From a virus, in the IMG/VR virus record IMGVR_UViG_3300032308_001479, positions 1 through 27,752 of that record: 27,752 nucleotides of DNA; one strand, written 5' to 3'. This document shows positions 2,438 through 18,176 of this stretch, piece after piece. A model generated the notes under the pieces. The model had not been told where the DNA came from. It searched no databases and saw only the letters and a program-made list of their open reading frames with translations. Every line of letters begins with the position of its first letter. Position 1 is the stretch's first letter. The translations under genes and the position numbers were made by a program.

Positions 2438-3730
2438 ATGAATATAAATAAAGCACATTGGTCAACAGACGGCGATAATGTACGTCTGTCAATGCCTCTT
2501 ACAAAAGTAGACAAAGAGAAGCGTATCGTTTCTGGATTTGCGTCTTTGGATAACCTTGATAAGCAAGACGATATTGTTACAACAGAAGCATCAATGGAAG
2601 CATTTGCAAAGTTCCGTGGCAACATTAGAGAAATGCATCAGCCATCAGCAGTAGGAAAGATGGTTTCATTTAAAGAAGAAAAGTATTTTGATGCAGATTC
2701 AAAGAAGTTTTATAAAGGTGTTTTTGTTTCAGCCTATATTTCAAAGGGTGCACAAGATGCCTGGGAAAAAGTTCTTGATGGCACATACACTGGTTTTTCT
2801 ATTGGGGGACGAATGAACAAGTGGGATGATGCATATGATGAAAAAGCAGATAAAACAATTAGAGTTATTAAGGAATACGATTTGATTGAGTTGAGTCTTG
2901 TAGATTCCCCAGCAAATCAATTTGCAAATATTGTGTCCGTTGAAAAGATTAACGGAGTAGATACATTGACAGGATCATCAGCCAACCTAGTTGTTGAAAA
3001 TGTATTTTATGACTCAGAGTCTGGCCTAGTAACTTTGTCAGTAAACGAATCAGAGGTAAGTCCAGTCACTGGTGAAGAAATGAAAAACATTGGTTTTGTT
3101 GAAAAAAATGATTCAGAAAAAACAGAAATGATAAAGTTCTTAGTTGATAGTGCAAAAGGCATTAGAACAATTAAGATAGCAAAGGAGGATAATCCTATGA
3201 CAGAAAATACAGAAGCAGTTGCAGAAGCAACTCCAGAAGTTAACGAAGTTGAGGTTGCTCCAGAGGCTCCTGCAGAGGCAGTTGCAAAGTCACTAGAAGT
3301 TACAGAAGAAGTTGTAGCAGAAAAGTCAGATGCAGTTGTTGAAGAGGTTAGTGCTCCTTCTATTGAAGAAGTAACAGAGAAGGCTGACGAAGCAATCATT
3401 GAGGTTGCAACAGCAACAGCAGAAGTTGCTAAGGCAGTTTCTGAAATTCAGAACTCTGTAACTAATGCCTTGAGCGATCTTGCAGCAACAGTAAAGGCTA
3501 TGCAAGCCAATGTTGATGCAATTACAAAGTCTCTTGAATCCGTAACAGAGGAAGTTAAGGAAGTTAAGGGAAGCTTTAATGAATTTGGAAAGACCGTTGA
3601 TGCCGTAGTTGCAGATACCGCTTTCCGCAAGTCTGGCGATCTCGGCGAGATTGTACAGGAATCACCTAAAGTGATTCAGAAATCCCTATGGGGCGGACGT
3701 TTCCTCACAAATTCCGACCTATTTAACTAA
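2438..3730 (+). CDS. Prohead serine protease (XkdF-like) with C-terminal scaffold domain
   Basis: A 430-residue protein in two parts. Residues 1-170 form an XkdF/U35-type prohead protease: the IVSGFASLDNLDKQDDIV strand region, a candidate catalytic His67 in REMHQPSAVGK, Ser121 in TGFSIGG, and the conserved IELSLVDSPAN strand with Asp156. Residues 254-430 are an acidic, alanine/glutamate/valine-rich scaffold region with predicted coiled coil, ending in a conserved-looking SLWGGRFLTNSDLFN tail. Residues about 171-253 are a linker that may carry cleavage sites. By family knowledge the protease acts inside the prohead, degrading scaffold and itself before DNA packaging. Translation seems to begin within about three bases of the mRNA end with no Shine-Dalgarno, suggesting modest expression. 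The scaffold part also has its own start at 3197. The capsid gene follows. Confidence 0.87.
   Translation: MNINKAHWSTDGDNVRLSMPLTKVDKEKRIVSGFASLDNLDKQDDIVTTEASMEAFAKFRGNIREMHQPSAVGKMVSFKEEKYFDADSKKFYKGVFVSAYISKGAQDAWEKVLDGTYTGFSIGGRMNKWDDAYDEKADKTIRVIKEYDLIELSLVDSPANQFANIVSVEKINGVDTLTGSSANLVVENVFYDSESGLVTLSVNESEVSPVTGEEMKNIGFVEKNDSEKTEMIKFLVDSAKGIRTIKIAKEDNPMTENTEAVAEATPEVNEVEVAPEAPAEAVAKSLEVTEEVVAEKSDAVVEEVSAPSIEEVTEKADEAIIEVATATAEVAKAVSEIQNSVTNALSDLAATVKAMQANVDAITKSLESVTEEVKEVKGSFNEFGKTVDAVVADTAFRKSGDLGEIVQESPKVIQKSLWGGRFLTNSDLFN
3181..3188 (+). promoter_or_regulatory. Strong internal Shine-Dalgarno for the nested scaffold
   Basis: AAAGGAGG inside the protease gene is 8 bases before an in-frame ATG at 3197. 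It is one of the best ribosome binding sites in the window, whereas the protease's own start has none. Confidence 0.75.
3197..3730 (+). CDS. Capsid scaffolding protein, nested in frame within the protease gene
   Basis: An internal start at codon 254 of the protease frame would give a 177-residue protein beginning MTENTEAVAEATPEV. The composition is that of a scaffold: long acidic A/E/V-rich helices, a central heptad-like stretch around SDLAATVKAMQANVDAITKS, and a C-terminal basic/aromatic segment (VIQKSLWGGRFL) of the sort that docks on capsid protein. The evidence for separate expression is the strong ribosome binding site at 3181-3188. The precedent is lambda, where scaffold Nu3 is made from an in-frame start inside protease gene C. 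Scaffold is needed in hundreds of copies and protease in few, which this arrangement would supply. The capsid gene begins 27 bases after the shared stop codon. Separate translation is an inference from sequence. Confidence 0.7.
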   Translation: MTENTEAVAEATPEVNEVEVAPEAPAEAVAKSLEVTEEVVAEKSDAVVEEVSAPSIEEVTEKADEAIIEVATATAEVAKAVSEIQNSVTNALSDLAATVKAMQANVDAITKSLESVTEEVKEVKGSFNEFGKTVDAVVADTAFRKSGDLGEIVQESPKVIQKSLWGGRFLTNSDLFN

Positions 3731-8121: not shown

Positions 8122-8766
8122 ATGGCATATAGTCGTGGAACGTCTACCAACATTATCGTTGGCGCAGCAGCACTATTTGTTGCAGACAATACATTGGCTC
8201 CTACAGGAGCTAATGCACTACCAGCTTTTACTAATGCTGAGTCATACAGAGAGACACTTTCAAAGTCTCCAGCAAGCTCATCATTTACAAACGTAGGTTA
8301 CACTATGAATGGTCTTGAATTGCAGTTCCAGCCTGACTTCGGTGAAGTACAGGTTGACCAAATTCTTGACGTTGCTAAGCTTTACAAGCAAGGAATGCAA
8401 GTTAATCTTTCAACAGCATTTGCTGAGGCTACATTAGAAAATCTTCTATTGGCTCTAGCATATGGTGATTCAAAGCTTACTACAACACTTAATGGAGACA
8501 AGACATTAGACTTGTCAGCAGGAGATATCGGTGAATGCCCAGTTGAGCGAGGAATCGTTGCAGTTGGTCCAGGAACTGGTGACTGCGTAGACTCTGCATA
8601 CGTAGAGCGTGTTTATGCAGCATACCGTGCACTTTCAATTGAAAATGTAACAGTGTCTGCTAAGCGTGAAGAAGCTTCAATGTTTGAGGTTTCATTCCGT
8701 CTTCTTCCAGAAGATGGTGGATCATACGGTAAGATCGTTGATCGCACATGGGGCGACCAATCATAA
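8122..8766 (+). CDS. Major tail (tube) protein
   Basis: A 214-residue protein forming the tail tube. The layout GTSTNIIVGAAALFVADN, then LSKSPASSSFTNVGYTMNGL and LQFQPDFGEVQVDQILDVAK is typical of actinophage-type major tail proteins, in which a beta strand carries the 'T..G....Y.P...ev.vdq.' pattern before a helix. The second half, with SIENVTVSAKREEASMFEVS and a terminal FRLLPEDGGSYGKIVDRTW, supplies the strands of the tube barrel. AGAGGTG precedes the start at good spacing. It has its own promoter upstream and a strong terminator downstream, so it can be expressed as a single-gene transcript, fitting the high copy number needed. It sits just before the chaperone genes and tape measure gene, the normal order. 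Confidence 0.88.
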   Translation: MAYSRGTSTNIIVGAAALFVADNTLAPTGANALPAFTNAESYRETLSKSPASSSFTNVGYTMNGLELQFQPDFGEVQVDQILDVAKLYKQGMQVNLSTAFAEATLENLLLALAYGDSKLTTTLNGDKTLDLSAGDIGECPVERGIVAVGPGTGDCVDSAYVERVYAAYRALSIENVTVSAKREEASMFEVSFRLLPEDGGSYGKIVDRTWGDQS

Positions 8767-8843: not shown

Positions 8844-9581
8844 ATGGCGACATCAATTTATAAAACAAAAAATATTTATCTATTTGACGGAACAGAAATA
8901 GAGATAATGCCTCTTAAGATTAAGTACCTTAGAGAGTTTATGGATGCCTTTAATAAGATTAAACATGCAAAAAATGATGATGAATCAATGATTGTTTTAA
9001 CAGAATGTACAAGAATAGCAATGAAGCAGTATTTCCCTGAAATATCAAAAAGCATAGAAGATCTTGAAGATAATATAGATTTGCCAACAGTTCATGTAAT
9101 ATTAGATGTTGCTGCTAATATCAAGATTGATCAAACGGAGGAAAATCAAGAAAGCCAAGAAAGTCAAGACATTAAGTCAAAAGCACAGAAAGGAGATGTA
9201 GGACCTTCCTGGGAAGAATTTGATCTTGCTAAAATTGAGTCAGAGGTATTTTTGCTTGGTATCTGGAAAGACTATAATGAGTTAGAAGAGTCTTTATCAT
9301 TAGCAGAAATAATGGCAATATTGTCAAGCAAAAGAGAGTTAGACTATCAAGAAAAGAAATTTTTTGCATCAATACAAGGAGTTGATTTAGAGTCTGATGG
9401 CGATGAAGAGCGTGGTCAAAAAGAATGGGAAAATCTTAAAGCAAGAGTATTTAGTCGTGGCGCTACAAGTGATAGCAATGATGTACTATCTTTGCAAGGA
9501 CAAAATGCTAGATCAGCAGGTTTTGGTATTGGCATGGGGCTTGACTATGAAGATGCAAGAGATCCAAACCTTATAAAATAA
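8844..9581 (+). CDS. Tail assembly chaperone, long form (G and T-like regions in one frame)
   Basis: A 245-residue protein. Residues 1-95 are a G-like domain (LFDGTEIEIMPLKIKYLREF and LEDNIDLPTV). Residues 96-121 are a Glu/Gln/Ser/Lys linker. Residues 122-185 carry the T-like region: EVFLLGIWKDYNELEESLSL and a downstream FFASIQGVDLES, a pattern seen in the frameshifted C-terminal part of tail chaperones in siphoviruses. Here both parts are in one continuous frame, so no ribosomal frameshift is needed to make the long product. Its first about 95 residues are paralogous to the next gene. Chaperones bind the tape measure protein and recruit tail tube subunits, and are absent from mature virions. 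The near-leaderless start suggests lower expression than the short form. The last 50 residues are Gly/Ser/Asn-rich. Confidence 0.82.
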   Translation: MATSIYKTKNIYLFDGTEIEIMPLKIKYLREFMDAFNKIKHAKNDDESMIVLTECTRIAMKQYFPEISKSIEDLEDNIDLPTVHVILDVAANIKIDQTEENQESQESQDIKSKAQKGDVGPSWEEFDLAKIESEVFLLGIWKDYNELEESLSLAEIMAILSSKRELDYQEKKFFASIQGVDLESDGDEERGQKEWENLKARVFSRGATSDSNDVLSLQGQNARSAGFGIGMGLDYEDARDPNLIK

Positions 9582-9627: not shown

Positions 9628-9954
9628 ATGGCAACAACCGTGCATGAAGCGCAAACGATTAAGCTAATTGATGGTACAGAAATTACTCTAAGACCGCTTA
9701 AAATTTCACTTTTACGAAAGTTTATGAAAAAGTTTGAGGGTATTGCAGCAGTAGTAGATGATAATGACAAGTCAATTAATCTTTTAATGCAATGTGTATT
9801 AATAGCTATGGAGCAGTACGCTGCTGGATTAGATGTAGATCTTGCAAATCTAGAAGATAACATTGATTTGCCTACTGTCTATAAGATTGTTGAGACAGCA
9901 TCAGGAATTACAATTTCAGATGCAGCTTCAATCTTTGGCAACATTGAAGAATAA
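9628..9954 (+). CDS. Tail assembly chaperone, short form (G-like), paralogue of the upstream gene
   Basis: A 108-residue protein equivalent to the G-like domain of the gene before it. Shared features include the MAT start, DGTEI and PLKI blocks, LR-FM, a Cys followed by I-A-M-QY, and an identical ten-residue LEDNIDLPTV. It ends about 13 residues after this homologous region and has no T-like part. It has a strong GGGAGGG site and its own promoter, so it should be made in excess over the long form, as G is over GT in lambda. The two genes differ at many synonymous positions even within the identical block, so the duplication is not recent. The tape measure gene follows after 23 bases. Confidence 0.82.
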   Translation: MATTVHEAQTIKLIDGTEITLRPLKISLLRKFMKKFEGIAAVVDDNDKSINLLMQCVLIAMEQYAAGLDVDLANLEDNIDLPTVYKIVETASGITISDAASIFGNIEE

Positions 9955-9977: not shown

Positions 9978-12900
9978 ATGGCTGATGTCCAGTCCAATAT
10001 TCAAGTAAGCATTGATACTACTCAGGCACTTGCCAGTATCAAAAACTTACAGAGACAGATATCAGCCTTCCACACATCAATGGCTCAGAGCGGTGCTGCA
10101 GCAAATTCAGTCACTGCTCAAATGCAACAAAATTTAATTAATTCTATAAATGCAACAGGCAAGTTCTCTGCCCAAATGAGAACAATAAAAACAACCACTG
10201 AATCTTTTACAGACTCTTTAGAGAAAAACAAGTTTTCTTTAGGAGAATATTTTAGGTATGCTGGTGGAGCTTCCAAAACTTTTGGTAGGTTGTTTAAGAC
10301 TGAGTTTGAAACAATAAACAAAGTAGCAAGAGAAAATGTAAAAGACCTTCAGACACAATACATCAAGATGGGCCGTGATGCAAACGGTGCAATGAGAGCA
10401 ATCTCTGTAAGACCTTTATCTTTGGATATGAATGATCTTGCAACAAAGACAATGATTGCTTCTGAAAGACAGGCTCTGTTAAATCAATTATTAAAACAAG
10501 GTTCTACCAATCTTCTTAACTTTGGTAAAAATACACAGTGGGCTGGTCGTCAGCTCATGGTTGGTTTTACCATTCCATTAATGGCTGTTGGTTCTGCAGC
10601 AGCAAAAACCTTTATGGATATGGAAACACAGGCCATAAGATTTAAAAAGGTATATGGAGATCTATTTACTCCATCATCAGAAACAAAAGCAGCACTAGAA
10701 GGAATTACAGAGCTTGGAAAAGAATTTACAAAGTATGGCATTGCTGTATCAAGCACGGTAGGTCTTGCAGCAGAAGCTGCAGCTGCAGGTTTTAAGGGAC
10801 TTGATCTACAAAGACAGACTACAGCAGCAACAAAACTTTCTATTCTTGGTCAAGTAGAAAGTCAAAAAGCACTTGAAACAACAATTGCTTTGCAAAATGC
10901 TTTCGCAATGTCATCTGACAATCTTGCCGAATCTATAGATTTTCTTAACGCAGTAGAAAACCAAACAGTATTGTCACTTGATGACATGTCAACTGCAATT
11001 CCAAAAGCAGCCCCAGTAGTACAACAGCTTGGTGGAGATGTAAAAGATTTAGCATTCCTTATGACTGCAATGAAGGAAGGCGGAATCAATGCATCAGAAG
11101 GAGCTAACGCCTTAAAGTCTGGTCTTGCATCTTTAATTAATCCAACTGGAAAAGCAAATGATATGCTTTTAAGCTTTGGAATTAATGCAAAGAAAATTGT
11201 AGAGAACAATAGAGGAAACCTAAAGAAAACCGTTATTGATTTTGCATCAGCTTTAAATGAACTTGATCCACTTAATAGAGCTCAGGTTATTGAGCAAATG
11301 TTTGGAAAGTTTCAGTTTGCTCGTCTGTCTACACTTTTTGCAAACGTTACCAAAGACGGAACACAGGCAGCACGTGTTCTTGACTTAGCTTCAGCATCTG
11401 TTCAGGATTTAGCAGCGATGTCTGAAAAAGAATTAGGAATGACTGCAGAGTCTGCAATGAATAAGTTTAAGGGCGCTGTTGAAAACTTAAAGCTATCACT
11501 TGTTCCAGTGGGAGAAGAATTCTTAAAAGCAGTTACACCAGTTGCAGAATTTGTTACTAAAATTTTAGAAAAGTTTAATGGTCTAAGCGATGGAACAAAA
11601 AAGATTATTGTAACCATAACAGCTATAGTTGCAGGTCTTGGTCCAGTATTCCTTATGACGTTTGGTTTGCTTGCTAATGGTTTAGCCAATATAATTAAGG
11701 GCTTCACTTTCTTAAAAACTATATTTAATAAAACTGGGCAATCATCTGCAACTCTAGGAACTGAAGTTAAATATATGACGCTTGAACAAAGAAATGCAGC
11801 AGCAGTTGCAGCATCTCTTGATCAAGTTCATAAAACGCTTGCACAAACATTTACTGCAGAGGCTTCAGCAGTTGATGCACTTACAAGAGCATATCACAGA
11901 TCTATTGCTGCACAAAGAGGTTTTATACCAACTAGCGCTCCTGTTGGTCGTGGACCAGTAAAGACAAAGGGAAAGTTTGCAAACGGTGGAATTATTGTAG
12001 GACCTGGTGGACCAACATCAGATTCAGTACCAATTATGGCTTCAAATGGAGAAGCAATCATTTCTGCAGCAGTAGTAAAAAAATATCCTGAAATGGTTAG
12101 TAACTTTATTTCTGGAAACATTCCTGGATTTAGAAGGTCTGGAATAATTGGTCCTAAAACAGTTGCAAGCCACATAGAGGGATTTACTCCAGCACAATTA
12201 ACTACAACACTGTCAGACCCAATAATGCAAAGAGTTTTATCAGTTTTGCCAGATGTTGGTGTTAGTATTCAAAGATTGTCTACAACAGCCGATGGAATGG
12301 TAGCAGTAAGCAGAACTATTGAAACATCTCTTAGGGGTCTGTCTAATAGCTTATTAGAAAATAATATTCAAGATGTAACAGCGATAGGAACTGGTGAATT
12401 TGCTGGAACAACAACTCAAACATCTTCTGAAAGAAACTTCATGTTAAATTCTGCTGGCATTGCAGGAGAACCAATAACATTTGAACAAGCGCAAGAAGCA
12501 AGTACAAAGGCTCAATCTTATGTTGATAGACCATCTAAAAATGAAACAGATAATACTAAAGCGCAAAAAGAAGAAGCAAAAAAATTAGTGCAAGAACAAT
12601 TAGATTTTGAAAAAAGTTTAGTTGGACTGTCTCAACAAGAAGTTGAAGCTAGAAAAACAGATTTTACAAAAACCAAATCTACTCAAGCATTAGAGTATAC
12701 ATTAATGCAAAAGGGATTGTCTGCAGAAGAAGCATCTACCTTGGCAAAACAAAAAATTGCAGAGGCAGAAAAAGCAACATTAAGACTTGTAGAAGAAGCA
12801 AGAACAGATTTAGAAAAAAGAAAAATAAAGGAAGCGGCATACAAAGCAACATTGCTAAAAGAAATGGGCGCAGTTGCTGGGTATGACGAAAAAAATACAA

Positions 12901-15900
12901 AGACTGATGTATTTAATAGAACACAGCTTAATGCAGTTCCAAGAGATATGGCAAAGGGTCAGGTTCAATTCGGCACTCCTTATAAGCCAGGACAAGAAGT
13001 GCCAAAGGATGCAGCAGTCTTTGGTTCAGGCAAGTCGTTTATGGGTCTTTCAGGTAAAAGAGTTAAGAGAAACCAAAGTGCTGTTGTAGATGCATCAGTT
13101 AGAGACGACTACTATGATGACAGAGGTAAAATTAAAGCTTTGTTTAAACGTGGATCTAAAGATGGAACAGAGTATACAAGGGGAGTTAAAACATCAACAA
13201 AAGATCCTTATGAGACAAGTCTAGACAGAAGCAGTCCCCACCCATTGGCTGCTACCCACGGTAAAGAAGATGGTGTTGCATATCAAACAGCAAAAGAAAA
13301 AGCAATAAATAAAACAAAAGAAAAAGGAACTCAAAGTGGCAAACCACGTCGTGTTGCAACAAGAGCACAGGGACCTGCACCGATTGGACCAGATGCTCCA
13401 TCAGGAACTGGATTCCTTCCAATAGTTGCACCACTTACAGATGCAGAATCTCGCAGAGAAGACAAAAAGAAAAAAGCTGCAAACAAAAAAAATAAATTGT
13501 TAAGCGCAGGAAGAAAGATGAATTCTCTAAGTGGAGGAATGGGACTTCTTGGTGCTAACATGGCTATGTCTGCTCTTCCAGATTTTGCTGGTAAGGGATT
13601 AGCTCAAGGAGCTTTAACAGGAGCAAATCTTGGAATGATGTTTGGTCCACAAGGAATGGCCATCGGAGCTGGACTTGGTGCAATATCATCTGCTATTTCT
13701 GAACTAATAAACAAACAGAAACAGTTAAAAGCAGTAACTGAAGCAACCTTTAAGTCAAGTGCTGATGTTGCAACATTCTTTGGCAATGCCGTTGTTGATA
13801 CAACACTAAAGGTAGGTGCATTCTCAACAACAATGACTAGTCTGTCAAATTCTGCAAATAAAACATCTCAGTCTTTTGGATTTACAAACGAAGAGCTTGC
13901 AAGATTTAATAAACTAATACAAGATCTTCCAGAAAACAATCCTTTGAAAACAGTAGTTGAAGGATTAGCAAATGAAGATAATCCAGAAAAAATTAATGAA
14001 CTGGCTAAGGCATTTATAACAACACAAGTTGCTATGGGCCAACTAAAACCAGATCAAGCTCAAAAAACCTTAGATTTAATTTTAGCTTCTAGCGGTCACT
14101 TGTCTATGGTAGGCTCATCGTTTATAAATCTTACAACACAAGTACAAGCAATATCTTTAACATTACAGTCCGCTGCAACAAACTCAAAGCTTTTAGGAGA
14201 CACTCTTATTCAGCTAGTTGGCGCAGCAGCAAACAGTTCATCTCTAGCTCAAATGAAGTTAATAATAGATGGCATAGGTCAATCTGGTTTATCAACTGCA
14301 AGAGCACTAGATGCAATGTACTCTGCATTTTTAAGAGTTGGAAACAAAGATGCTGCAAATGGAGTAAAGGTACTAAGAGGTGTTGCTGGAATAACTGAAG
14401 ATGAAGTAGCATTCATAATGGGAGCTGCAGCAAAAGGGTTTAATGCAAAAGTTACTAAGGACACAAATGTCAAGCAGTTAATGAAGGATGCGGAAGCAGC
14501 TGTAGTAGCATATGATAAAGCATCTGCAGCCGCTGATAAAGCTAGAGATTATACAAAGACTAAAGCTTATAAGAACCAACAAGAAGAAATGTCTGGTACA
14601 AAAAAACAAATTGATTTATTAAAGAAAAAGAAAAAACTAATAGATGACCAGATAAAGCAACAGGAAAAAATAACTAATGAGCTTAAAAGACAAAATGACT
14701 TCTTAAATACTCAAAGAAGTTTAGATCAACAAATTGTTGAAGCAAAAATAAAGGGAAATTATATTGAAGCAGCCAGCCTGTTGGCAGAAAAACAGCAAAA
14801 CGCTGTAGAGTTTAATAAAGAAACAGCAATATCTATATTAAAGTCACAATCAGATAAGATACAGGAACAGATAGATGCTTTAGAGGCAAACAATCAAAAG
14901 GTTGTTGATGCAATTAATAAGGGTACTGCTGACGCTGCAGCAAATGCAGACAGGATAGTTGCTGCTGTTAACAATATTAAGCCAGGTTCAATTACAGGTC
15001 CAGCTACTAGTCCAACTAACCCTGCAGATGCAAATAAAGTTGGTGGACCAAGTATTGCAGCTACAGACATAGATCCAAAAACTGGTGAAAGAGTTATGTC
15101 TAAGTATGGACTTAATGAGCCATTATCAAAACTTAGGGGTGGAGCTGGTGCTTGGAAAGTTGGAGATATAGTTAAAATTGGTCCTGGCTTAGATGTTCTT
15201 GGTCTTCAGTCAGCAGATCCGTTAAAACCAATACTTTCTGGATCTGTTAAAATAACAAAAATAGACGCAACTAGAGGACAGTTCTATTACGAACCTGTTA
15301 TTAAAAAAGCTAAGGGTGGAATTGTAAAGCAGTTCAACCCTGGTGGTAAAGTATTAGGTCCAGGAACATCAACTTCTGATTCAATTCCAGCATTGCTTTC
15401 TGATGGAGAGTATGTAATTAAGGCATCTTCTGTTGCTAAGTATGGTACAGAAACAATGGATGCTTTAAATGCTGGTAGGTTTGCAGATGGCGGATTAGCA
15501 TCAAGACCAAAGTATGGTAAAAAACAAAACTGGTTCCAAAGGTATGTATCTAGCCTTAGCGGAATGCCAGGCGCTGAAATGTTTGGTACAGCAGCACTTC
15601 TAAGAAAATTTGCGGGGCAAAGCAAAAAGGGAGATAATTTATCTGCAGCAACAATGCCATTAAACTTTATGGGAATGGGTGCTGGTAGAAGTTTATTCCT
15701 TGGTATGCCACGTGGAATAAAAGCTCTAGAAGAGGCACGTAAAGCTGAACAAACAATGAAAGCAATAGACGCTGCCACTAAAACGGGTAAATTTAAAAAT
15801 CTTCCAATTACACAATTAGGAAAACAACTAGAAGCAACAGTTGGTAAAAGCTTTCCAGTTAAAGGAATTGGTGGTTTATATGAGGGCGCAGACGGAACAA

Positions 15901-18176
15901 AAGAATTTGTCAAGCCAGTAACAGATGCTCTATCTGGTTTATCTGAAATTAGATCTAATTTAATTTCAACAAAAATTGGACTAACTACACCAATTCAAGA
16001 TTTAATAAAAATAATAGATCCGTCAGATCCAAAAGGCAAGAGAACGCTTTTAGCATTAAGGTCTGCGTATAATCCAGAATTTGCAAATCCTACTGGAACG
16101 TTTACGGTTAGTGAATATATAACACAATTAGTTGCTTCTTTATGGCGAGGAGACAGAGACTTACAAAAAGCAAACTTGTCTGGCAGAAATCTTGTTGACT
16201 CAGGAACTTCAGGCGTATACGACTTAGCTTCTGGAATGAGAAATCTGTCTACCTCAATGCCATCAATGCAAGAGCAGGCTGCTATTAATTTACTAGGTGT
16301 AAAGGGCGGGGCAAAAAGATGGTTTGCTGAAACAACAGCACCAATTGCACAATCAATGACACCAGCACAATACCATGATGCAATTATAAAAGAAATTAAC
16401 AGACAAATTCCATTGGTAGAAGAAGCCATAGCATCATTTAAACTAACTGATCCAGATGAAATACAAGCTTATGCAAATCTGATAGATAGACTAAAAGCTG
16501 GAGCAGCACCAGGAGTAGATTGGTCGCCATTTCAATCAATGGCAGCAAGCGTTGTTCCAGCACCAGTAAAAATACCAACTCCAGCAGCACTTGCTAAAAA
16601 GGCTGAAGAATTAGAATTAAGAAAGAGGCAGTCTGGTCATGCTGTAGGATTTTCTGACCTATCGTTTAAAGAGCGAATTGATGGATATGCTAAGGGTGGA
16701 CCAGTAGGACATAAGCACAATAACTCAAATGGAAACTTCTTTAGTAGATTTAATCCAGTAAATGCAATATCATCCATGTTCAGTGGTATGTTTAATGTTG
16801 GTGCCTCTAAGGCTTTTAATACAAGCACTAATATTAAGTCTCAAATAACTCAGCAGGAAAAAGACTACATGGCTCTGAAAACTGGTCAAATACTTTCTGG
16901 GTATACCTCTGCGTTTAATTTAAAGAATAAGACAAGTCCAGAAATATTTGGTAGTAAAAAGCTAGGAACAGCAGCAGATATACTTGGGGTTTTGCCAGGA
17001 CTTGGTGTGGCAGGAAAACTTGGAATTAGTGCTAAAAAAGCTGTTGTTCCAAAAACTACAGCTTATGCACAACAACCAATGTCAGGAGCAAAAGCTTTTG
17101 GTCCATATGATGCTGAACCCATATTAAGATATGTAGAAAGACCTACTAGTTCAAACAACAGAGGAATGAGTCATGTTTTACATAAAGGTGTTTTTGGAGA
17201 AGATGCTGGAACATTCTTTAGAGCATTAAGCGATTATGACATGGCAGAAATTGCTGGGTATGTAAGAGTTCCAAATCCTAATATAGTTAAATTTGATGAT
17301 GCATATAGGGCTCAATTCGCAGATGTACCACACATAGTTGATAAAACTGTAGAGACTAAATGGTCAAGTCTTGCAAGAAGATGGAAGCCAGAAGCTGCAC
17401 AAATATTCCCTAGAGGTGTAAGAGGACCAGAGTTAGGATCAGAGGCATCATTACCGTATCTTGATGTAGATCCAGCATTGCCTATCGGTGGATCCTGGAT
17501 TCCAGATGCTGTAAAATCAATAACAAAAGAGATAGAGTTTGCAAAAGAAATAGCAGCAAGAGGTGGTACTAGCGGTGGACAAAATAGAGCTGTTGCAAGA
17601 ATAATAGTTGACCCTATGGTCCAAGGACTAGCTGACTTTAGATCTCTACTTCCTGGCCATAATGCAAGCCACTTTAATCCTAACTATACAGAAGGAGCGA
17701 TAGCACCATTTACTAGATATATATTAGAGGGAATTAAAAAGAATGCATACGGATATACAGATGAAGCAAAAAATGTTACTCACTTAATAGATGAATATAT
17801 TTTTAGAGCAGTACAAACATCACCTTATGCACAATTTTTAGCTCGTGATTTGCCTGAAAGATTTGGCAAATATGGCAAGTATGACGAACTGCTTCCTATA
17901 GTTAAAAAAGCAAAGGGGGGAATGGTTAACTACAAACTTCCATCATATGAGGTTGGATCACCTTACATCCCTGAAGATCAGATTGCACAACTTCACAAAG
18001 GTGAGCGTGTCCTTACTGCACAAGAAAACAAGAACTTCTCAAGTACTGGACCTGTTACAAACAATATTACAATCAACGGTGCTGATAAAGATCCTAAGCA
18101 AATAGCACAAGAGGTTATGCTACAATTAGAAAGAATGCAAAGCAAAAATAACAAGACGAATTTGGTGGGAAGATAA
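9978..18176 (+). CDS. Tail tape measure protein, very large, with embedded extra domains
   Basis: A 2732-residue tape measure protein, the internal ruler of the tail that is ejected ahead of DNA. Residues about 185-480 are a TP901-type core (QLMVGFTIPLMAVGSAAAKT, then DDMSTAIPKAAPVVQQLGGD). A hydrophobic segment lies at about 541-575 and a glycine-rich one at about 1188-1245. Charged coiled coils are at about 851-968 and 1541-1650. Four modules of the form AKGG...TSDS-P...GE-VI occur at 667-703, 1777-1822, 2237-2244 (partial) and 2644-2684. Between the last three lie a kinase-like region (about 1955-2100) and an unrecognised region (about 2370-2630). The C-terminal module SPYIPEDQIAQLHKGERVLT is a common tape measure ending. 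AAAGAGGTG precedes ATG 9978. Its stop overlaps the next start (TAATG). At the usual 0.15 nm per residue, a fully measured tail would be up to about 410 nm, less if the extra domains do not count. Confidence 0.9.
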   Translation: MADVQSNIQVSIDTTQALASIKNLQRQISAFHTSMAQSGAAANSVTAQMQQNLINSINATGKFSAQMRTIKTTTESFTDSLEKNKFSLGEYFRYAGGASKTFGRLFKTEFETINKVARENVKDLQTQYIKMGRDANGAMRAISVRPLSLDMNDLATKTMIASERQALLNQLLKQGSTNLLNFGKNTQWAGRQLMVGFTIPLMAVGSAAAKTFMDMETQAIRFKKVYGDLFTPSSETKAALEGITELGKEFTKYGIAVSSTVGLAAEAAAAGFKGLDLQRQTTAATKLSILGQVESQKALETTIALQNAFAMSSDNLAESIDFLNAVENQTVLSLDDMSTAIPKAAPVVQQLGGDVKDLAFLMTAMKEGGINASEGANALKSGLASLINPTGKANDMLLSFGINAKKIVENNRGNLKKTVIDFASALNELDPLNRAQVIEQMFGKFQFARLSTLFANVTKDGTQAARVLDLASASVQDLAAMSEKELGMTAESAMNKFKGAVENLKLSLVPVGEEFLKAVTPVAEFVTKILEKFNGLSDGTKKIIVTITAIVAGLGPVFLMTFGLLANGLANIIKGFTFLKTIFNKTGQSSATLGTEVKYMTLEQRNAAAVAASLDQVHKTLAQTFTAEASAVDALTRAYHRSIAAQRGFIPTSAPVGRGPVKTKGKFANGGIIVGPGGPTSDSVPIMASNGEAIISAAVVKKYPEMVSNFISGNIPGFRRSGIIGPKTVASHIEGFTPAQLTTTLSDPIMQRVLSVLPDVGVSIQRLSTTADGMVAVSRTIETSLRGLSNSLLENNIQDVTAIGTGEFAGTTTQTSSERNFMLNSAGIAGEPITFEQAQEASTKAQSYVDRPSKNETDNTKAQKEEAKKLVQEQLDFEKSLVGLSQQEVEARKTDFTKTKSTQALEYTLMQKGLSAEEASTLAKQKIAEAEKATLRLVEEARTDLEKRKIKEAAYKATLLKEMGAVAGYDEKNTKTDVFNRTQLNAVPRDMAKGQVQFGTPYKPGQEVPKDAAVFGSGKSFMGLSGKRVKRNQSAVVDASVRDDYYDDRGKIKALFKRGSKDGTEYTRGVKTSTKDPYETSLDRSSPHPLAATHGKEDGVAYQTAKEKAINKTKEKGTQSGKPRRVATRAQGPAPIGPDAPSGTGFLPIVAPLTDAESRREDKKKKAANKKNKLLSAGRKMNSLSGGMGLLGANMAMSALPDFAGKGLAQGALTGANLGMMFGPQGMAIGAGLGAISSAISELINKQKQLKAVTEATFKSSADVATFFGNAVVDTTLKVGAFSTTMTSLSNSANKTSQSFGFTNEELARFNKLIQDLPENNPLKTVVEGLANEDNPEKINELAKAFITTQVAMGQLKPDQAQKTLDLILASSGHLSMVGSSFINLTTQVQAISLTLQSAATNSKLLGDTLIQLVGAAANSSSLAQMKLIIDGIGQSGLSTARALDAMYSAFLRVGNKDAANGVKVLRGVAGITEDEVAFIMGAAAKGFNAKVTKDTNVKQLMKDAEAAVVAYDKASAAADKARDYTKTKAYKNQQEEMSGTKKQIDLLKKKKKLIDDQIKQQEKITNELKRQNDFLNTQRSLDQQIVEAKIKGNYIEAASLLAEKQQNAVEFNKETAISILKSQSDKIQEQIDALEANNQKVVDAINKGTADAAANADRIVAAVNNIKPGSITGPATSPTNPADANKVGGPSIAATDIDPKTGERVMSKYGLNEPLSKLRGGAGAWKVGDIVKIGPGLDVLGLQSADPLKPILSGSVKITKIDATRGQFYYEPVIKKAKGGIVKQFNPGGKVLGPGTSTSDSIPALLSDGEYVIKASSVAKYGTETMDALNAGRFADGGLASRPKYGKKQNWFQRYVSSLSGMPGAEMFGTAALLRKFAGQSKKGDNLSAATMPLNFMGMGAGRSLFLGMPRGIKALEEARKAEQTMKAIDAATKTGKFKNLPITQLGKQLEATVGKSFPVKGIGGLYEGADGTKEFVKPVTDALSGLSEIRSNLISTKIGLTTPIQDLIKIIDPSDPKGKRTLLALRSAYNPEFANPTGTFTVSEYITQLVASLWRGDRDLQKANLSGRNLVDSGTSGVYDLASGMRNLSTSMPSMQEQAAINLLGVKGGAKRWFAETTAPIAQSMTPAQYHDAIIKEINRQIPLVEEAIASFKLTDPDEIQAYANLIDRLKAGAAPGVDWSPFQSMAASVVPAPVKIPTPAALAKKAEELELRKRQSGHAVGFSDLSFKERIDGYAKGGPVGHKHNNSNGNFFSRFNPVNAISSMFSGMFNVGASKAFNTSTNIKSQITQQEKDYMALKTGQILSGYTSAFNLKNKTSPEIFGSKKLGTAADILGVLPGLGVAGKLGISAKKAVVPKTTAYAQQPMSGAKAFGPYDAEPILRYVERPTSSNNRGMSHVLHKGVFGEDAGTFFRALSDYDMAEIAGYVRVPNPNIVKFDDAYRAQFADVPHIVDKTVETKWSSLARRWKPEAAQIFPRGVRGPELGSEASLPYLDVDPALPIGGSWIPDAVKSITKEIEFAKEIAARGGTSGGQNRAVARIIVDPMVQGLADFRSLLPGHNASHFNPNYTEGAIAPFTRYILEGIKKNAYGYTDEAKNVTHLIDEYIFRAVQTSPYAQFLARDLPERFGKYGKYDELLPIVKKAKGGMVNYKLPSYEVGSPYIPEDQIAQLHKGERVLTAQENKNFSSTGPVTNNITINGADKDPKQIAQEVMLQLERMQSKNNKTNLVGR
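11598..11702 (+). other. Hydrophobic, probable membrane-spanning segment in the tape measure protein
   Basis: Residues about 541-575, including IIVTITAIVAGLGPVFLMTF, are long and apolar enough to span a membrane, perhaps helping form the DNA channel through the host membrane on ejection. The role is inferred from other tape measure proteins. Confidence 0.6.
11976..12086 (+). repeat. Tape measure repeat module 1
   Basis: Residues 667-703, with FANGGI, GPGGPTSDSVPIMASNGEA and a KKY ending. It shares the GG, TSDS-(V/I)-P and GE-(A/Y)-(I/V)-I pattern with module 2 and precedes the long coiled-coil middle of the protein. Confidence 0.7.
15306..15443 (+). repeat. Tape measure repeat module 2
   Basis: Residues 1777-1822: KAKGGIV, GPGTSTSDSIPALLSDGEYV and an AKY ending. 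It lies directly before the kinase-like region. Confidence 0.7.
15840..16260 (+). other. Kinase-like domain inside the tape measure protein (HipA / PI3-4-kinase-like signature)
   Basis: Residues about 1955-2095 show motifs in the order of small HipA/PI-kinase-like folds. There is a glycine-rich loop GIGGLYEG (1963-1970), Lys1979 in EFVKP, and Glu1990 in a helix followed by KIGLTTPI. Then come GDRDLQKAN (2058-2066), resembling a catalytic loop with Asp2059/Asp2061 and Asn2066, and VYDLA with Asp2082 at the metal-binding aspartate position. Each motif is short and the match is by eye; the region is compact for such a fold. If real, it would enter the host or periplasm with the tape measure protein. 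Confidence 0.38.
16686..16709 (+). repeat. Tape measure repeat module 3 (partial)
   Basis: Residues 2237-2244, YAKGGPVG, correspond to the first part of modules 2 and 4 only; the TSDS and GE parts are missing. It separates the kinase-like region from the next domain. Confidence 0.5.
17085..17898 (+). other. Unrecognised globular domain near the C-terminus of the tape measure protein
   Basis: Residues about 2370-2640 look like a folded alpha/beta domain rather than ruler helix. It has aromatic, histidine and tryptophan-containing stretches such as MSHVLHKGVFGEDAGTFFRA, ETKWSSLARRWKPEAAQIF and RSLLPGHNASHFNPNYTEG. I do not recognise the family. It is bounded by modules 3 and 4. Confidence 0.45.
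17907..18029 (+). repeat. Tape measure repeat module 4 (C-terminal type)
   Basis: Residues 2644-2684: KAKGGMV, then YEVGSPYIPEDQIAQLHKGE and RVLTAQEN. This version, with a 'Y..G.PYIP.DQ.A.LHKGE' pattern, is a common ending of Gram-positive phage tape measure proteins. Confidence 0.65.

Follow-up and report, generated by a model that had tools for sequence, protein, structure and literature searches.

Introduction

Can the tape measure protein (TMP) of a phage carry an ATP-dependent enzyme, and if so, where would that enzyme act? TMPs are usually regarded as rulers and formers of the DNA channel that contain a cell-wall hydrolase at most. An earlier note on this DNA had read, by eye, a set of short kinase-like motifs in a TMP encoded in the window (the whole 27,752-base virus record analysed here), and had suggested that an enzymatic domain at this place could be an effector injected at the start of infection.

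The tape measure gene and its surroundings

Based on profile searches and gene order, the open reading frame (ORF) at 9978..18176 (+ strand) encodes a phage TMP of 2732 aa. It matched the TMP profile phrog_10030 with an E-value of 8.4e-105 and contained a PhageMin_Tail domain (Pfam profile, E 8.8e-26; aa 246-443, 10713..11306, +). Within the tail module this long gene comes after the tail assembly chaperone, and the gene order of portal, protease, major capsid, major tail, tail assembly chaperone, TMP and minor tail equals that of the annotated Streptomyces phages Tomas and Beuffert (Stanwilliamsviridae). The window belongs to a freshwater phage. As the best cultured matches of the portal, the capsid and the N terminus of the TMP were found in Streptomyces phages, at 30-46% identity, its host is likely actinobacterial. 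The two genes 5' of the TMP gene, in the tail assembly chaperone region (8844-9581 and 9628-9954), look like paralogues, because both match phrog_10504.

Several modules were recognized in the TMP around the putative kinase. The first repeat module, of the type GG-x-V-GPG-TSDS-P-GEAI, was read from the sequence at aa 670-703 (11985..12086, +). It is followed by a glycine-rich GxxxG stretch resembling a glycine zipper (aa ~1184-1243; 13527..13706, +), which also gave sub-threshold matches to Pfam DUF1269 and Gly-zipper profiles. Glycine zippers, which were also noted in TMPs, have a suggested role in the translocation of effectors (PMC10240207). The stretch lies upstream of the cargo and is a possible membrane-insertion element. 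A repeat module common to the relatives, GGKVLGPGTSTSDSIPALLSDGEYVIKASSVAKYG (aa 1789-1823; 15342..15446, +), precedes the kinase segment. Comparison with relatives delimited a C-terminal module of unknown kind (aa 2370-2645; 17085..17912, +), which was present, at 82-85% identity, only in the loci L120/L206 (L206 being the contig of L120) and L207. The last module, GG...IPEDQIAQLHKGERVL (GG...LHKGERVL; aa ~2647 on; 17916..18032, +), is conserved in the relatives. The kinase-like motifs had been placed between two repeat modules, and this is what we found, with GGKVLGPGTSTSDSIPALLSDGEYVI starting at aa 1789 on the upstream side and GG...LHKGERVL on the downstream side. Antisense ORFs overlapping the region of the kinase domain were taken as spurious.

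Conservation of the kinase-like residues

The kinase-fold domain was delimited at aa ~1900-2180 (15675..16517, +) from its homologues, an AlphaFold2 model and fold searches. This 281-residue stretch had 11 close relatives and more than 90 with an alignment, solely on environmental viral contigs, and the domain family comprised 72 distinct sequences with the window's own counted. The closer pairs had dN/dS values of 0.11-0.24, indicating that the domain is under purifying selection. Neither the domain nor its alignment had a significant match in searches of Pfam, PHROGs, NCBIfam and PDB sequences. HipA_C (PF07804) had no match in the domain, the window's record or the family members, and the PI3/PI4 kinase profile PF00454 had none in the domain or the family members. 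No relatives were found in 50,697 phage records by tblastn with the consensus or in the genome collection, and the cultured relatives Tomas and Beuffert, when examined, were without the domain. Apparent second copies of the domain inside one ORF had bit scores below 5 and were rejected as noise. In one locus (L119) the TMP reading frame is broken within the kinase domain at bases ~8230-8271, by either a sequencing error or a real split.

All the motifs listed in the earlier note were present in the TMP frame, i.e. GIGGLYEG (aa 1963-1970), K1979, E1990, GDRDLQKAN (2058-2066) and YDL (2081-2083). The equivalents of the beta-3 Lys and the alpha-C Glu, K1979 (15912..15914, +; strand E86-91 of the model) and E1990 (15945..15947, +; helix H95-110), were each found in 77/77 sequences, a set that includes six more distant members scoring 229-310 bits from the search seeded with the TMP N terminus, and in which the counts are of sequences, many of them related to each other, and not of independent events. 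The Gly-rich loop GIGGLY (aa 1963-1968; 15864..15881, +) had G1966 in 76/76 and G1965 in 73/76. In the catalytic loop GDRDLQKAN (16149..16175, +), which comes after helix H155-168, D2059, D2061 and N2066 were each conserved in 77/77, with D2061 and N2066 (+5) spaced as in HRDxxxxN. R1992 and L2062 were likewise conserved in 77/77 in the 78-row alignment.

The expected conservation of the Lys, Glu, Asp and Asn residues held for K1979, E1990, D2059, D2061 and N2066 and failed for D2082 of YDL (16221..16223, +), which had been named as a pocket residue and is Asp in only 27/76. The DFG-like Asp is instead D2074, an invariant residue that had been overlooked; it lies 8 residues past N2066 in a D-x-G motif (D2074-S-G2076; 16197..16205, +), of which D2074 and G2076 were conserved in 77/77. 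Among the D, E, K and N columns of the window's domain, 9 of 58 were fully invariant (78-sequence alignment), and of the six residues with a charged or amide side chain that had been singled out by eye, five belonged to these nine (hypergeometric ~1.5e-4). The motif elements are more than chance, which confirms the original observation. An intact active site (Gly loop, beta-3 Lys, alpha-C Glu, catalytic Asp and Asn, DxG Asp) is well supported by the alignment.

Predicted fold of the domain

The AlphaFold2 model of the domain, made with 56 sequences, had a pLDDT of 86 and a pTM of 0.82. It starts with a helix and three strands (60-64, 77-80 and 86-91, with the Lys at model position 90 = K1979), followed by helix 95-110 (Glu at 101 = E1990), strands 118-124 and 134-141, and helix 155-168. 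The catalytic loop at 169-177 (D172 = D2061, N177 = N2066) is followed by two short strands and D185-x-G187 (= D2074, G2076), after which come four C-terminal helices (208-217, 225-236, 240-263 and 270-286). The order of the elements in the model is the textbook order of kinases, and the D+5=N spacing is that of HRDLKPEN. The model gives good support for a compact two-lobe kinase fold with an N-lobe and a small helical C-lobe.

In the Foldseek search of the PDB all 50 of the 50 matches listed were kinase or pseudokinase structures or complexes with one. The E-values, 2.8e-3 at best, were marginal and the TM-scores of 0.2-0.4 were low, which places the match at the level of the superfamily. VIA-align ranked atypical members of the kinase superfamily first. 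The best was CtkA (Z 10.5; 4.1 A over 196 residues), followed by the N-terminal fragment of LepB (Z 9.5), Golgi casein kinase/Fam20C and HipA (both Z 9.3), and further by PI4KIIIB, HipT (Z 8.9), actin-fragmin kinase (Z 8.8) and PI3K-delta (Z 8.7), and the best of these exceed the Z of 7-8 that the tool gives as typical when a model has no clear match. In BFVD, which contains predicted viral proteins, the matches (E 9e-6 to 3e-4) were large viral proteins, mostly of phages, including two named ADP-ribosyltransferase and one named portal. With a confident model that Foldseek and VIA-align together place close to kinases of the HipA, CtkA and PI3K types, the earlier reading of a HipA/PI3-4-kinase-like fold is supported.

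In HipA the Lys and Glu likewise come first, followed by D(+5)N and the metal Asp, as they do in the TMP domain. The overall kinase fold is shared with kinases of the HipA/HipT/CtkA types (PDB 4pu4, 8ezr, 3akk), which gave top structural scores of Z 8.9-10.5. The TMP domain differs from them in sequence (9-18% identity, no HipA_C match), in being embedded in a phage TMP and in its very short link of 8 residues between the Asn and the DxG Asp.

Cassette behaviour in related tape measure proteins

With the TMP N terminus, 80 loci were found, 67 of them with a complete TMP ORF, and the kinase-fold domain was present in 7 of these 67. The nearest relative by N terminus in this search, L120, matched aa 1-718 of the window at 88% identity and aa 2374-2732 at 85%, and was without the segment of aa ~1900-2373 (15675..17096, +) between these flanks. 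In its place L120 (ORF 4492, aa 1735-1945) had a LysM domain (E 5.8e-11) and a weak match to an M15 peptidase. The reverse was seen for L007, which matched the window at 32% in the N terminus but at 71% over aa 1789-2249, the cassette region. In L016, with a TMP of more than 4415 aa, the kinase was located at 2591-3008 and the counterpart of the window's aa 2236-2367 at 2039-2175, so the modules have been reordered. The window and contig 3300042691_014285 differ by a synonymous divergence of 0.24 across the kinase segment and of 0.67 across the N terminus of the TMP, as expected from recent exchange of the cassette. The kinase started within 100 residues past an L-x-x-GE-x-V-I repeat motif in 38/78 cases, and in one subgroup it fills the gap between two such motifs. 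The kinase-fold segment is a mobile cassette, with gains, losses and exchanges that do not follow those of the remaining TMP.

Proposed function and alternatives

We regard it as fairly probable that the domain is an ATP-dependent phosphotransferase effector that is delivered with the TMP at infection. It would bind ATP-Mg via the catalytic loop (D2061...N2066) and the metal-binding D2074, and transfer phosphate to a protein or another target. The domain would travel in or with the tail and be ejected with the TMP across the envelope, with the glycine-zipper-like stretch lying upstream of it. A folded domain of 30 kDa may not fit the lumen of the tail tube and would need to be unfolded or stored elsewhere; after entry it would refold in the cytoplasm, where ATP exists, and modify a host factor early in infection.

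Because of its need for ATP a kinase, unlike a cell-wall hydrolase, would hardly work outside a cytoplasm, which leaves two places of action: the new host, once the TMP has been ejected, or the producing cell, ahead of packaging. In the second case an active kinase would act late, with tail or chaperone proteins, or host factors at the time of lysis, as its targets, and would be built into the tail only passively. The TMP gene is a late structural gene, the producing cell has ATP, and most relatives assemble without the domain, which could fit an accessory regulator; however, the cassette is frequently exchanged and a LysM-containing segment takes its place in L120, which looks like cargo for entry and not like a conserved role in assembly, and we consider late action unlikely. 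Entry cargo is favoured because the slot is also used by a wall-binding module and its content changes fast, as in conflict systems. The proposal of an injected effector is in this respect plausible.

Still less probable is that the kinase fold serves another ATP chemistry, such as AMPylation or glutamylation, or a non-protein substrate (a small molecule or lipid). The best structural matches (CtkA, LepB, HipA, Fam20C, PI3K) are atypical members, from a region of the superfamily in which the chemistry varies, and the family has conserved features of its own in D2059 and the motifs ASG-R and INLLG-KGG, but the retained residues (Gly loop, K, E, D...N, DxG) are the normal set for phosphotransfer. 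A catalytically dead pseudokinase, used as a structural or ATP-binding scaffold, would agree with the very high divergence from known kinases and the lack of a family match, but is very improbable given that all catalytic positions, among them those of the base D2061 and of the metal ligands, are invariant in 77/77. That short motifs read by eye arose by chance in a non-enzymatic TMP spacer is the least likely reading in view of the confident kinase-fold model, the invariant catalytic residues and the purifying selection.

Relation to known systems

Phage-delivered polyvalent proteins carry kinases, ADP-ribosyltransferases (ARTs), GNATs and peptidases (Iyer et al. 2017, PMC5512222). They, too, have a kinase in a large multidomain phage protein that is delivered, as the TMP would be, and ART-, GNAT- and peptidase-like segments, mostly at motif level, occur in relatives of the TMP. 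The polyvalent kinases are described as missing the entire C-terminal subdomain, whereas our model has four helices after the DxG, and the word "tape" is absent from the text of PMC5512222. TMPs with muralytic domains, those of TM4, T5 (pb2) and phiIPLA35 as cited in PMC6116005, are also alike in having an enzymatic domain within the TMP, and L120 has LysM in the same slot; the muralytic domains, however, act on peptidoglycan outside the membrane, while a kinase needs cytoplasmic ATP. TMPs have been described as cargo of the tail lumen that is ejected into the host membrane, and contractile injection systems of actinobacteria have modular, TMP-related effectors, Sle1/Tme (PMC13277306). These effectors share a TMP-like body, exchangeable functional domains and ejection as cargo, but these systems are not phages and the word kinase is absent from PMC13277306.

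Our search of open-licence papers turned up no report of a kinase domain within a phage TMP. Already known were injected phage proteins with several enzymes (PMC5512222) and muralytic TMPs (PMC6116005). A fold for an ATP-dependent enzyme whose active site is invariant would be of use to the phage only where this portion of the TMP is at work in a cytoplasm, and the cassette makes the old question of the fate of the TMP after ejection testable. It suggests that some phages use the TMP that threads the tail to deliver enzymes into the cell, and that host takeover or anti-defence can start before any phage gene is expressed.

Other contents of the slot

A second kinase-like family, with the canonical pattern D-x-HGGN...AIDFGR, was found twice in L016 and in L123, L201 and L205. 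L016 has three kinase-like domains in its TMP, the window-type one included. In a profile-profile comparison of the window family with this second family (A4) the Lys and Glu were aligned, at a probability of 0.2%, which is not significant. The structure predicted for the second family had a low pLDDT of 39 and was not used, so the assignment is at the level of motifs. In L197 (ORF 3505, aa ~1930-2290) a third kinase-like segment, DIHGMN...QLDFG, matched PI3_PI4_kinase at E 0.1. Zincin-like HExxH motifs occurred in L122 and L124, and there was a CHAP-like match at E 0.013 and a GNAT-like match at E 0.038. Other TMP slots seem to hold kinase-, ADP-ribosyltransferase-, peptidase- and acetyltransferase-like sequences, slot contents other than LysM being below curated thresholds and motif-based.

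More tentatively, and with somewhat more doubt than belief, the TMPs of uncultured, probably actinobacterial phages may be a general delivery platform. Conserved GTSDSIPA-LS-GEYVI repeats would serve as borders between which cassettes of enzymatic effectors are swapped, and the cassettes would be ejected into the host together with the genome. Among them would be two or three families of kinases at the least, domains that resemble ADP-ribosyltransferases, acetyltransferases and proteases, and cell-wall modules.

The second kinase-like family is located at aa ~2150-2540 and 3070-3365 of the L016 ORF that starts at base 3, and at aa 1964-2254 of L123 ORF 2079. An ART-like pattern, HGSQPTGLR...FFGTSSKSEA-MYASGYN, was seen in L122 ORF 8564 (aa 2640-2815) and in L123 ORF 2079 (aa 2340-2500). 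Weak CHAP-, HExxH zincin- and GNAT-like segments were located at aa 1975-2060, 2456 and 3100-3345 of L122 ORF 8564 and at aa ~1900 and 2340-2570 of L124 ORF 6151.
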